A stretch of DNA of 32,692 bases from a virus: IMG/VR virus record IMGVR_UViG_3300048589_000139, positions 1 through 32,692 of that record; one strand, written 5' to 3'. A program made the translations under genes and the position numbers. Below, piece by piece: positions 7,203 through 13,337 of this stretch (within the stretch, counting starts at the first letter, position 1; the number at the start of each line of letters is the position of its first letter). The notes under the pieces are model-generated. The model searched no databases and had not been told where the DNA came from. It saw only the letters and a list, made by a program, of their open reading frames with translations.

Positions 7203-7247
7203 GTTAATTTGTTTTTAAGTGTTTGTAAAAGGTGTACATATCAGCCG

Positions 7248-7457
7248 TTATGCACAAGTGGCTACATCCGTTTCCTTCTTCAATTTTAGTCCTAATTCAT
7301 CAGGATCTAAGTAAAAAACAGGTCCTCTAAATCCACAAGCACACCATACACCATACACATCTTGGTAACCTTCGGGTCCGTGTAATTCATGTCCGATTTC
7401 TTTTTCTAAGTGTGAATAAGGGCATTCATATTTACTGTAATCTGCTTTGTCTTTCAT
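7248..7457 (-). CDS. Small zinc-ribbon-like protein, distant similarity to Lar-type restriction alleviation proteins
   Basis: The 69-aa protein contains ECPYSH (C12) near the N-terminus and GVWCACGFRGPVFYLD (C39, C41) in the second half. The spacing and the C-x-CG-x-x-GP motif recall the short Lar-like or eaa-like phage proteins. The link is weak and based on pattern only. Its stop codon lies inside GTGCATAACG, the same sequence that ends the methyltransferase gene upstream. Upstream is the inverted repeat at 7486-7617. The layout of one short gene ending in a TAAC box looks like a gene cassette (see findings). Confidence 0.62.
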   Translation of the reverse strand: MKDKADYSKYECPYSHLEKEIGHELHGPEGYQDVYGVWCACGFRGPVFYLDPDELGLKLKKETDVATCA

Positions 7458-7485
7458 ATTATCGTTTTTAAACCCGCCACCAGAT

Positions 7486-7617
7486 GCATAACAGCACCTA
7501 TAAAAAATAGCGAGGTTGTTGTTAATATTTAAGTTTGTGTTTCAATTTTACTTCGTTTTTAATTCGATAGTCTGTGCTTTGTAATCCGCTACTTTTCATA
7601 GCTGCAACACGTTATGC
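7486..7617 (-). repeat. attC-like inverted repeat B (132 bp)
   Basis: On the minus strand GCATAAC (7617-7611) and GTTATGC (7492-7486) are perfect complements. Just inside, CTATGAAAAGTAGCG pairs with CGCTATTTTTTATAG over 15 positions with two G-T wobbles, and a GCA/TGC step lies between. The outer box contains the stop codon of the methyltransferase-like gene. The geometry is paired R''/R'-like ends with a TAAC...GTTA core and a long variable loop, as in integron attC sites (57-141 bp). The core GTTATGC deviates from the canonical GTTRRRY at one position. It occupies the gap between genes 7612-8193 and 7248-7457; no promoter is evident. Confidence 0.55.
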
Positions 7618-8193
7618 ACAAATGCTACGTTTCGTCTCCGTTTGAATATTTCCCCATTGATTCGCCATAGCTTGTGCGATTCCTTCAAATGTTCGGCTTC
7701 TTTCCTTCCAGCGATTTTCTCCAGGAGGCATTTTCCAAATTCTTTGCTCCCTACCTTCCACAATGTTTGTCGGTTGCAATTTCGGTAAGTTTTGCAGCCA
7801 TAAACAAGTTGCTTTTGTTTCACCGTGTCCGTATTGCCACGGCTGTATTATTTGGTCAGGCTTTCGGATATGGCTGCTAATTATGCTTATCGGGTTTTCA
7901 AGTGCTATCTTTTCAATAGGTGCATTCAGAAGCAACCGAACAAACTCCAACGCTTCCGCCTGCTCCAATTTCTTATCCTTGAACCATCTCGCACCACTTA
8001 CAGCCAAATGTGTACAAGGTGGGTGCGCTATCATCATATCCCAGCCATCGCCAAGAATTTCCCGAACATCACACTGTAAGTGGTTGCCAGGTATTTCCGT
8101 TTCCAAAATGTCGCAGCTCCAAGCATCGTGTCCCAATTTGGAAAATGCCTCTCGAACTGTTCCGCTGTATTCACAAGCTATTAGTATTTTCAT
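7612..8193 (-). CDS. DNA methyltransferase-like protein with HPPC motif (cytosine-C5-like)
   Basis: The 193-aa protein begins MKILIACEYSGTVREAFSKL, a motif-I-like SAM site. It then has the motif-IV-like AHPPCTHLAVSGARWF with the cysteine at residue 60, and ENP at 99-101, which resembles motif VI. This fits a short family of phage and bacterial proteins usually named DNA cytosine methyltransferases. At 193 aa it lacks the large target-recognition domain of classical C5 enzymes. QPWQYGHGETKATCLWL (about 117-133) is another conserved family stretch. The role in DNA modification is likely but not certain. The gene lies between two attC-like repeats, so it looks like a cassette. Its stop is inside the repeat's GCATAAC box. 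Confidence 0.75.
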   Translation of the reverse strand: MKILIACEYSGTVREAFSKLGHDAWSCDILETEIPGNHLQCDVREILGDGWDMMIAHPPCTHLAVSGARWFKDKKLEQAEALEFVRLLLNAPIEKIALENPISIISSHIRKPDQIIQPWQYGHGETKATCLWLQNLPKLQPTNIVEGREQRIWKMPPGENRWKERSRTFEGIAQAMANQWGNIQTETKRSICA

Positions 8194-8210
8194 TCTATTA
8201 AAGTTTGTAG

Positions 8211-8233
8211 TTAATAATCCGCATCAGTGCATA
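8211..8233. repeat. 23-bp direct repeat, copy 1 (matches 12071-12093)
   Basis: Bases 8211-8233 match 12071-12093 at 22 of 23 positions. The second copy is exactly the last codons and stop of the XRE-type gene (CADADY then TAA). Here the same bases stand in a non-coding gap, immediately beside the GTTATGC end of repeat C. They look like the 3' remnant of a paralogous repressor gene. Confidence 0.7.
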
Positions 8234-8298
8234 ACAGCAGCTATACGCAACCTTGCCGCAGGCGCAACACAAACCTGCTCATAGCACCATACGTTAGC
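8229..8298 (-). repeat. attC-like inverted repeat C (70 bp)
   Basis: On the minus strand it runs from GCTAACG (8298-8292, containing the stop codon of the 121-aa gene) to GTTATGC (8235-8229). Inside, GCTATgaGCA pairs with TGCgtATAGC, and a central TTGCGCC-TGC-GGCAA forms a small terminal hairpin. The length of 70 nt, the TAAC...GTTA ends, two internal stem blocks with mismatches and a central hairpin all resemble an integron attC site. It separates the 121-aa gene from the methyltransferase-like gene. Confidence 0.5.
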
Positions 8299-8659
8299 AA
8301 ACATTTTCCAACGCACGCTCAATCTCTCCGGCAATAAGTTTTACCCACTCGAAGAAATCATTATCTAAATAAAGTCTTTGAGAACGCTCATTGAAGTATA
8401 AGTATTTACAAGTTCTACCTTCATTGTTTCGCTCCCAAGTCATTTCCCAACATAGCTTTGTCAGGCTGATAGTGTATTCCGGTTCTTTGCACCAATCAGT
8501 AATTCGCTGGCTGAAGTGCTTTTTATCGGCTTCACTTTCTGCACCCCAAAGAAATACCCGTCTTTCCAACGCTCTTAAACGTTTGCTAACATCAGGTATA
8601 GTGCATGCCTGCTGTTCGGGTAATTCAAAAAGTTTAGATTCTTTATTTTGTTCCTGCAT
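8294..8659 (-). CDS. Hypothetical protein (121 aa) in cassette-like context
   Basis: The 121-aa protein has a charged, helical N-terminal half (SKRLRALERRVFLWG) and a middle with WCKEPEYTISLTKLCWEMTW. I recognise no family. The start ATG sits in AATTATGCAG, close to the GTTATGC box seen in the nearby repeats. The stop lies in the TTTGCTAACG end of repeat C. One ORF exactly filling the space between two such boxes is the arrangement of a gene cassette. Confidence 0.6.
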   Translation of the reverse strand: MQEQNKESKLFELPEQQACTIPDVSKRLRALERRVFLWGAESEADKKHFSQRITDWCKEPEYTISLTKLCWEMTWERNNEGRTCKYLYFNERSQRLYLDNDFFEWVKLIAGEIERALENVC

Positions 8660-8719
8660 AATTGATATTTTAGTTCATTTTACACGGCACGACACCATAC
8701 CTGCGGCCGTTGTTGGGCA

Positions 8720-9016
8720 TTAAAACGGCGTCCCATCGTTTTTGATAGGATTGAAAAATAGTTTTATTCTGTAAGGATATTGGCGGTATATTTTGCGCCA
8801 AAGATTCATTTTAAGGTAGTACCAAATTTTTACAAAGAATATTTGAAATTTAGCATACCAATTAAATGTAAATTGTTCATACTTACAAGCGAAACAAGAC
8901 CCACTATAACTGCCTTCGATAACAGTAAATTGTAATCCTGTTTCTTTTGGGAAAAATCTTGGTTTTATGATACATGGTTTATTATCCCATGCTTTGTGAA
9001 TAGCCTTAATTTTCAT
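8720..9016 (-). CDS. Hypothetical protein (98 aa), basic and aromatic
   Basis: The 98-aa protein begins MKIKAIHKAWDNKPCIIKPR. It has a Cys pair (GSCFACKYEQF) and a very aromatic, basic C-terminal half (FFVKIWYYLKMNLWRKIYRQ). It is not clearly transmembrane. The family is unknown. Its stop is followed at once by GCCCAAC (8718-8712 on the minus strand), which fits the RYYYAAC consensus of an attC R'' box, but no clear complementary partner follows. Confidence 0.58.
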   Translation of the reverse strand: MKIKAIHKAWDNKPCIIKPRFFPKETGLQFTVIEGSYSGSCFACKYEQFTFNWYAKFQIFFVKIWYYLKMNLWRKIYRQYPYRIKLFFNPIKNDGTPF

Positions 9017-9108
9017 AATCTTTTTGAATTAAATTAATAAAAACCGTTTGGTAACCCCAATTCAAATTCATCGGCATTGTTTAGGTTTGTTTCTACTTTG
9101 AGCATTGC

Positions 9109-9330
9109 TTACAGTTTGTTTAGTTCTGATTTCACCTGATTGTAATATTCTGTGATTTTATTCTCAATATAAGCATCAACTTCTACAAGTTCCGGCATAT
9201 TTAAGATATTTTCAACAGAAATTAAAGCGCATTGCTTGGCTATTTCAAAATCCATCCCTCCGTAATCCTTCAACGATTCAATGTTCTGGTATTTCATTAG
9301 CAGTTCGGCTGCTTGTTGTTTTGCTTCCAT
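9109..9330 (-). CDS. Small helical phage protein (73 aa)
   Basis: The 73-aa protein MEAKQQAAELLMKYQN...AKQCALISVENIL...YYNQVKSELNKL follows a pattern common in Bacteroidota phages. That pattern is an N-terminal amphipathic helix, then AKQCALI-V-EIL, then a Tyr-rich helix ending in K-E-L. Such proteins are usually annotated as hypothetical and no function is known to me. It ends close to a possible 23-codon frame at 9034-9105. The 181-bp gap upstream (9331-9511) holds no convincing gene. Confidence 0.7.
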   Translation of the reverse strand: MEAKQQAAELLMKYQNIESLKDYGGMDFEIAKQCALISVENILNMPELVEVDAYIENKITEYYNQVKSELNKL

Positions 9331-9511
9331 AGGTACTGTTTTTTAAAAATTAGCCTCAGTTATTGTCTTAACCATTGGTTTAACTTCACGCTTAACTATT
9401 TCAACCGGATAGGTCGGTACATTTTAATCCCAAACTTGCCATATACTTAACGTTGTGGTGCATTAAAACGTACGCTTCACTTCGTGCCTCTGCCTGCCGT
9501 GGGTTGGTAGT
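9331..9511. other. Gap without a convincing gene; decayed coding remnant and repeat-like bases
   Basis: On the minus strand a frame of about 26 codons ending in VKREVKPMVKTITEANF is open between about 9435 and 9360 but lacks a proper start codon near its 5' end. It may be a relic. Further upstream, GTTTTAATGCACCACAACG (9472-9454) resembles the end of the 98-aa gene, GTTTTAATGCCCAACAACG (8726-8708). This hints that the same type of boundary sequence occurs here. No terminator or promoter is clear. Confidence 0.3.
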
Positions 9512-12329: not shown

Positions 12330-13337
12330 TCAAAACAACCCGCTTTGAATAGCATCACAACGTTTATTTGACATTTCTACATACACAGGATTAATGTCGA
12401 ACCCGATAAAATTTCGTTTTTCTTTTTTTGCCATTGCACACTCAGTTCCCGAACCTGCAAACGGAACTAAAACCAAATCATTTTCACGGCTGCAAGTTAA
12501 AATTAAAGCCCTTGTTAATGTTTCAGGTTTCTGCGTTTCGTGGTCATAATTCTTTGTTATGTGTGCTTCTTGGTCAAATTTCATAACATCAAATAATTTC
12601 ATAAAGTTGTTAAATGGTCGCCTTAATTGTTCGTATTCCTGCCTTAATTGTTCGTATGTATAATTGAAATTACCAATATTATTATACATTTCTTCGCTCA
12701 AAAAATCAAATCTTGTAGCATGCTTTCCTGTTTTATAACTTGCTAATACTTTTGCACTTTCTATATTTTTTGCAATTTTTAAATCTAAAAAGCATTTTAT
12801 AAAATCTTCAATTTTGGCAGTTTCATTTATTTTTGAAATCAAACTACTAAATAAATCTTTATGTATTACAGTGCATTCGTTTACCTTTTCTTCATTGCTA
12901 TACATTAAACATCTTTCAGTTACCGGAGCAAAACATCTGAAATTTTCAACACCTTTTTTTGTTTGTCGATTAAATTCAATACAAAGGTTATTTTCCAAAT
13001 TAAAATACTTATCAAAAATAACCTGTTTATATGCTATTTTTTTAGCGTGTCCGTAAACAAATAAAGTTCCGTTATCTTTTAGCAGTCTTTTAAATTCCTT
13101 CGCACACAGCTCAACCCACGCCAAAAATTCTTCAAAACTATTCCAGATAAAATCAAAGTCGCCTTTTACTTCAAAATACGGAAAGTCTGCAATAATCAAA
13201 TTTACACTTTTATCGGGTAAATCATTTTTGAGAAAATCGCAATGATGAACCCGATTAGAAAAATGCTTATAACATATAATACCCGATAATTGCGGGTTTT
13301 GGTGCAAATTTGATACTTGGTTACTATTTATATTCAT
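12330..13337 (-). CDS. Beta-class DNA methyltransferase with variant DFPY motif
   Basis: The 335-aa protein has motif IV as IIADFPYF (DFPY at 51-54), KETQKP-like HETQKP at 266-271, the SAM motif PFAGSGT at 292-298 and GFDINP at 312-317. The order of catalytic then SAM motif is beta class. Family members normally read DPPY. Here the first proline is Phe, which may change or weaken activity. About residues 130-265 form a long insertion, a possible target-recognition region. It includes YEQLRQEYEQLRR, encoded by a 17-bp direct repeat (12620-12636 and 12641-12657, period 21). The gene looks more A+T-rich than its surroundings, hinting at separate acquisition. It is transcribed from P5 with the 64-aa gene. 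Confidence 0.85.
   Translation of the reverse strand: MNINSNQVSNLHQNPQLSGIICYKHFSNRVHHCDFLKNDLPDKSVNLIIADFPYFEVKGDFDFIWNSFEEFLAWVELCAKEFKRLLKDNGTLFVYGHAKKIAYKQVIFDKYFNLENNLCIEFNRQTKKGVENFRCFAPVTERCLMYSNEEKVNECTVIHKDLFSSLISKINETAKIEDFIKCFLDLKIAKNIESAKVLASYKTGKHATRFDFLSEEMYNNIGNFNYTYEQLRQEYEQLRRPFNNFMKLFDVMKFDQEAHITKNYDHETQKPETLTRALILTCSRENDLVLVPFAGSGTECAMAKKEKRNFIGFDINPVYVEMSNKRCDAIQSGLF

Follow-up and report, generated by a model that had tools for sequence, protein, structure and literature searches.

A probable short array of mobile, integron-like cassettes without an integrase in a phage genome

The window analyzed here (the whole stretch of DNA under study) is an IMG/VR virus record of 32,692 bp, which was searched at full length. 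It codes for a DnaB-like helicase, a RecE-like exonuclease, an endolysin, a major head protein, a head protease, and a portal, and based on this gene set, we conclude that it derives from a tailed phage. The window also contains a short run of genes interspersed with attC-like sites (Table 1). All three sites matched by our covariance model R1 lie on the + strand with E below 0.01, and the next-best match in the window has an E of 0.24. The window crossovers are at G^TT on the + strand (7247/7248, 7611/7612, 8293/8294, and 8709/8710); because the crossover G^TT is on this strand, the genes are antiparallel to the sites. For cassette 3, we found no relative in the phage collection. For cassette 4, its own site gave no R1 match in an unfiltered search of the whole window; its right junction, CG^TTGTGGTGCATTAAAACG, is inside a 38 bp stretch that is 92% identical to L055, an array-bearing phage contig of 265 kb.

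Table 1. Features of the cassette array, with positions in the window
Feature	Positions	Strand	Basis
Left border of array (G^TTA junction), possibly a remnant attI or a secondary site of insertion	7247..7250	+	Left end of DNA common to window and L009
Cassette 1: 69-aa gene (7248-7457, − strand) and its own site	7248..7611	+	L009 match
attC-like site 1, long form	7478..7624	+	R1 55.5 bits, E 4.6e-13; outside training set
Cassette 2: 193-aa DNA methyltransferase gene (7612-8193, − strand) and its own site	7612..8293	+	L014 match
attC-like site 2, short form	8221..8306	+	R1 57.7 bits, E 1.1e-13; member of training set
Cassette 3: 121-aa gene (8294-8659, − strand), start codon within its own site	8294..8709	+	Sites 2 and 3 as bounds
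attC-like site 3, degenerate	8576..8722	+	R1 19.9 bits, E 0.0037; outside training set
Probable cassette 4: ORFs 8720-9016 and 9109-9330 (both − strand)	8710..9452	+	Right junction in stretch common to L055

The initial annotation, made from the sequence alone, had proposed an array of attC-like repeats in which TAAC-type boxes are paired with complementary arms. The boxes and arms are present where they had been placed, and the array claim held in that the window has three hairpin sites in the same orientation. The repeats exceed expectation: GTTATGCAC occurs in 3 copies compared with 0.39 expected, and the left arm GCATAACAGCANCTATA, with exact copies at 7486 and 8229, has 3 matches with up to three mismatches compared with 0.28 expected; in both cases, 0/100 shuffles reached 3. 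It had further described single ORFs on the same strand, which held (all are on the − strand), and the absence of an integrase, which held within the 32.7 kb record. Its reading of captured single-gene cassettes bounded by attC-like sites in a record without an integrase, i.e., a CALIN-like cluster, is thus supported. The crossover is corrected to G^TT on the + strand, with genes antiparallel to the sites and the third gene beginning within its own site. The methyltransferase identity held for the 193-aa gene by tblastn to annotated phage genes (the 15 best matches, all annotated phage DNA methyltransferases, are 60-72% identical), with no Pfam match at E 0.01; a zinc-ribbon identity is unsupported by Pfam at E 0.01. 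Outside the array, the window has a second DNA methylase at 12330-13337 (N6_N4_Mtase, Pfam). An Rfam search of the window returned no family at gathering score.

The sites belong to a family with the + strand layout NNNTAAC-AGCANCTATA-loop-CATAGCTGC-N4-CGTTA, each being an imperfect palindrome of 55-130 nt. The standard attC models HattCI and attC_4.cm were not applied; the check with HattCI and IntegronFinder proposed in the initial annotation was replaced by R1, a covariance model built from 14 sites of the family itself, one of which is window 8221-8306. Because the training sites of R1 came from pattern scans, its matches are not independent of the search pattern; the comparisons of cassette exchange and attI described below are independent of it. 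A first pattern scan returned 44 contigs, which by a rough estimate is about the chance number for so large a collection, and only contigs with a second arm were carried forward. Among viral contigs, pattern scanning recovered 22 stretches with the long form (~125 nt) and 9 with the short form; in genomes, the yield was 11 stretches, from Uhrbacteria, Bacteroidota, and other metagenome-assembled genomes. One R1 search took in 63 of 98 sources (97 loci and the window), and those omitted were mostly loci without the double-arm pattern or an integrase.

On 31 aligned sites, 86.5% of cells were paired, and we counted 51 double-change cells compared with 16.7 in shuffles, none of which (0/500) matched this number; sliding the partner arms abolished the signal. 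Thus, covariation supports the hairpin. In all 31 curated sites, the bottom strand gave the better predicted DNA fold, and across all sites, predicted folding favored the bottom strand in 209/229, the top strand in 19, and neither in 1. A constant A.C mismatch of the top strand is a G.T wobble of the bottom strand. These predictions are compatible with recombination via the folded bottom strand, which is inferred by analogy with integrons and not backed by an assay.

R1 matched 63/296 Bacteroidota and 18/286 Patescibacteria genomes sampled (phylum names inferred). Chromosomal arrays of the phage-type site family were seen in Bacteroidota genomes L196-L210 (e.g., L199 and L209), and arrays were also seen in Uhrbacteria and other Patescibacteria (L067, L073, L078, L079, L203, and L205). 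In plasmids, the long site was unmatched. The 462 kb phage record LR756500.1 contains part of the long site once; this stretch (L098, 14829-15056) is a remnant of a single long site and includes a leader-like ORF (MEEQNLNNIENPKLGIYDV...), and R1 found no match in 30 kb around it. L068 (PAJP01000009.1, binned as Methylophaga) and L009 (IMG/VR 2806310815_000003) are both 23,567 bp and carry the same cassette; L068 is probably a viral contig inside a Methylophaga bin.

Cassettes pass singly between otherwise unlike phages, with ends at TTA junctions, as sequence comparisons (the only evidence used here) demonstrate. Window 7247-7614 is 88.6% identical to L009 2128-2494 (93% identity for the cassette 1 protein), and no other window DNA is common to L009. 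Similarly, window 7612-8308 is 87.0% identical to L014 3965-4668, the sole DNA common to both. Both shared stretches start and stop at TTA junctions of sites. The ORFs of L014, as read without a family search, include portal and head genes of another phage, and the methyltransferase cassette of the window stands alone in this otherwise different phage. In L014, T rather than G precedes the left TTA of the cassette, and for this reason, the insertion may have used a secondary (attG-like) site. Two further pairs show the same behavior: the only DNA common to L045 and L050 is a 301 bp stretch that is 99-100% identical and has CGTTA at either end, beyond which the two sequences are unlike on both sides; for L047 and L054, the common DNA is a 1,332 bp backbone plus a cassette of ~429 bp, and all three inspected breakpoints fall at GTTA. 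Based on these exchanges, the crossover is assigned to G^TT of the + strand, and a cassette is taken to be a gene followed by its site. The initial annotation had called for precise cassette gain at a G/TTATGC junction in other phages; this was met for cassettes 1 and 2. In the case of the window's own locus, the backbone gave little to compare: megablast of window 1-25000 against phages gave no match, a search with the recombination gene found no backbone relatives, and a portal search returned a single 4.2 kb fragment with an identical portal. Because this fragment is the only backbone relative, no sister phage shows whether cassettes were gained or lost here.

In large phages, the site family occurs in same-orientation arrays beside a compact, Xer-like tyrosine recombinase, with a conserved attI-like sequence between them. 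An HMM for integron integrases matched site-bearing contigs, and in several, the integrase adjoins the sites. Using four phage integrases as queries against viral contigs, we obtained 72 loci, many on contigs of >100 kb (up to 465 kb). R1 gave 163 matches at E ≤0.01 in these loci. Not one of the 163 is on the integrase strand, and 161 are upstream; the two downstream matches are both in L158, where the integrase match is partial. This count includes near-copies (L150/L151, L152/L153, L154/L155, L109/L159, and L140/L141). A site is present in 54/72 loci and at least two sites in 39/72. A full-length integrase match was obtained in 57 loci, and in 50 of them the upstream sequence measures at least 1 kb; there, R1 found a site in 45/50 and none in 5/50. 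The nearest site is a median of 719 bp from the integrase.

Between the integrase and the first site, and read outward from the integrase, lies a conserved attI-like TATATATAATAG^TTA. We compared 21 locus pairs with an identity of 90% or more in the 100 nt preceding G^TTA: the next sequence differs in 16 and is the same in 5; in 15 of the 16 differing pairs, identity is below 60% over the 50 nt after G^TTA. Such variation of the first cassette after TATATATAATAG^TTA is the trace expected from insertion at attI. Based on the linkage and orientation of the sites and on the attI-like sequence with its variable first cassette, we conclude that large phages carry integron-like platforms. In four Bacteroidota (L197, L198, L199, and L209), the integrase is N-terminally extended and on the same strand as the sites; it is still at the attI end.

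These data bear on an alternative in which the sites are terminators or other intergenic hairpins retained through common descent, while ordinary homologous recombination within the repeats turns over the genes. Repeats could indeed seed homologous recombination. However, the shared stretches end sharply at the TTA junction in every pair inspected, attI and the site share, by eye, almost nothing past the TTA, and integrase linkage and orientation are nearly perfect. We therefore give this alternative very little credence.

The R, K, H, R, H, and Y residues have catalytic roles, and their columns are invariant in 40/40 aligned integrases. The phage-platform integrase is compact and Xer-like and lacks the 41-47 residues that mark IntI: from the catalytic Arg to HxLRH, there are 86-88 residues in 21 phage integrases, 91 in two Uhrbacteria, and 91-92 in Bacteroidota (four measurable of six), compared with 95-99 in five Xer proteins and 133 in 25/25 IntI. 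Consistently, a profile of the integrases has 20 positions where IntI4 (2a3v) has 63 chain residues between aligned parts (~43 residues missing) and aligns through XerA without a gap. For all seven integrases tested against NCBIfam, the XerA-type model NF040815 was the best match, its cutoff being passed by L082 alone; all seven missed the cutoff of TIGR02249 (265 bits). The best PDB sequence match was 4a8e. In a Foldseek search with an AlphaFold model (mean pLDDT 85.9, pTM 0.69), 2a3v ranked top (E 9.5e-15, TMq 0.70) and XerA next; because of this ranking, the fold does not separate affinity to IntI from affinity to XerA. A tree of 45 rows unites the phage and Bacteroidota integrases (96/92, a group that also takes in L086) and recovers IntI as one clade (100/100). 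The two Uhrbacteria integrases, which have no IntI insert, are placed with IntI at moderate support (92/82). Of the six Xer-labelled rows, five stand apart, and the sixth, L086, is among the phages.

In pdif modules, genes are flanked by dif-like sites and moved by XerC/XerD; the dif core is 28 bp. An explanation by such modules, i.e., genes flanked by dif-like sites and moved by host XerC/XerD, is supported by the Xer-like length of the integrases and their best matches to XerA-type models. However, the sites are covarying hairpins of 55-130 nt rather than 28 bp cores (no search for a dif core was made), they have one orientation and a dedicated adjoining integrase, and the integrases are separate from five of six Xer-labelled rows in the tree. 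We regard this explanation as highly improbable.

A second alternative is a classical integron CALIN, in which ordinary attC cassettes are moved by a host IntI. In its favor are the attC-like architecture, the G^TT crossover, and the bottom-strand bias. Moreover, phage CALINs have already been published: Qi et al. 2023 (PMC9892861) described integrons and CALINs in phages, including 17 CALINs, methyltransferase cassettes, and phage attC active with IntI1. Against it, the linked integrases have no IntI insert (86-92 residues compared with 133) and fall below the TIGR02249 cutoff, and R1 found no match in 79 kb around 25 IntI genes, though these stretches are short. On balance, we consider a classical CALIN unlikely. 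We instead favor a distinct integron-like system. Compared with the criteria for integrons, (i) a one-orientation array of folded sites is present; (ii) attI lies at the integrase end, in large phages; (iii) cassette gain, loss, and exchange at G^TT is met by sequence comparison; and (iv) membership of the IntI family with its extra domain around patch III (PMC9668308) is not met by the linked integrases. Thus, the system works like an integron but fails IntI membership, and integron-like working is independent of membership in the IntI-domain family; there are no laboratory data on activity.

The window shares the gene orientation of the phage cassettes. From 126 phage intervals, we excluded 6 on account of size and 2 that had no ORF; the other 118 were scored, of which 111 were unique. 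The longest ORF is antiparallel to the site in 106/111, with the start codon inside the site in 32 of these 106. In Bacteroidota chromosomes, the ORF is parallel to the site in 24/29 (38 intervals, 9 dropped for size), and in Patescibacteria in 8/9 (11 intervals, 2 without an ORF). Long sites were seen to provide, on their bottom strand, a leader with its start codon (e.g., MEHENLNNQETAQLGIGAV) that runs in frame into different cassette genes (examples are L081 2157-2474 and 3191-3457, L049, L045, and L047). Judged from the sequence, some cassette genes thereby take their start codon and N-terminal residues from the site; no role for the peptide is established. The pN/pS of the leader was 0.353 in one group of 7 and 1.081 in a group of 6 with an unsound alignment. 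The cause of the reversed gene orientation in phages is inferred only. Regarding cargo, a set of 104 cassette proteins (A5) comprised 102/109 unique phage cassettes of a partial earlier count plus window 8723-9016 and 7251-7457; four sense-parallel cassettes and three others were omitted without a stated rule. Few of the 104 matched Pfam (15 families, including DNA methylases, an RNA ligase, a PARP-like domain, and a radical SAM domain), and PADLOC returned mainly methyltransferase models.

Altogether, our findings make it likely that the window contains three, possibly four, mobile cassettes of this integron-like system, arranged as a short array without an integrase. The array meets the CALIN criterion of at least two attC-like sites (here three) without an integrase nearby. 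No integrase was found in the 32.7 kb of the window or in 18/19 other site-bearing records searched alongside it; the record is possibly a fragment, and therefore, absence from the whole phage is not shown. By direct alignment to attI, the left border of the window is weak (rank 6 with 6 ties among 741 GTT sites) and that of L009 ranks 3 of 203; the main attI matrix fails to pick the window border (rank 4066 of 65330). The attI likeness of this border is possible and at most a lead. By analogy with integrons, we infer that the recombinase would excise and insert cassettes at G^TT, joining double-stranded attI to the folded bottom strand of a cassette site, and that a large phage or a host would be the source of the integrase. 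A phage infecting the same cell or an integrase-making host may have supplied the window phage with its cassettes in trans; the enzyme acting there is unidentified. The window phage would thereby gain and spread useful genes, e.g., the orphan methyltransferase. The weak points are that site 3 is weak, the fourth cassette has no recognizable site, and there is no experiment. A bolder reading, toward which we lean slightly less than away from it, is that large phages harbor a separate integron lineage whose integrases never had the I2/IntI-specific domain yet use folded single-stranded sites, that small phages such as that of the window are passive carriers by which its cassettes spread, and that phages reversed the genes so that the site also gives some start codons.

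Escudero et al. 2016 (PMC4792948) speculated on a viral origin of integrons; if true, the bolder reading would supply the viral Xer-like intermediate that they imagined. Acquisition of the I2 helix is thought to have moved integron integrases from double- to single-strand recombination (PMC7790495), and widespread attC-like hairpins with attI and arrays but without an I2-type domain would make this step testable. Phages would also run their own cassette exchange, which bears on the viral spread of accessory genes, including those for anti-restriction. Surveys that rely on the IntI domain would miss this system: a large integron survey named one complete integron in Bacteroidetes (PMC9024848), in contrast to the frequency of R1 matches in the Bacteroidota genomes sampled here. 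In the open-access literature searched, we found no report of large phages carrying complete attI-bearing arrays together with an integrase that has no IntI domain; this absence proves little, because the search covered open-access papers without preprints.

Compared with known systems, the present one resembles IntI integrons and CALINs (PMC9892861) in its single-gene cassettes, attC-like folded sites in one orientation, attI by the integrase, G^TT crossover, methyltransferase cargo, and integrase-less clusters in phages. It differs in that the integrase lacks the IntI-specific domain, complete platforms are in large phages, and phage genes are antiparallel to the sites, with ~3 in 10 starting within the site. 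Like XerA, XerC, and XerD (4a8e, 5hxy, and 1a0p), the integrases are compact without the IntI insert and have their best NCBIfam (NF040815) and PDB (4a8e) matches among these proteins; unlike them, they are linked to arrays of hairpin sites and attI and separate from five Xer rows in the tree. VchIntIA/IntI4 (2a3v) is the top Foldseek match, and its catalytic regions align with those of the phage integrase, from which ~43 of its residues are absent. Finally, CTXphi-type integration (PMC4792948) also uses a single-stranded hairpin as the phage recombination site and an Xer-like enzyme; however, CTXphi borrows host XerCD, whereas the system described here combines a phage-encoded integrase with a cassette array.
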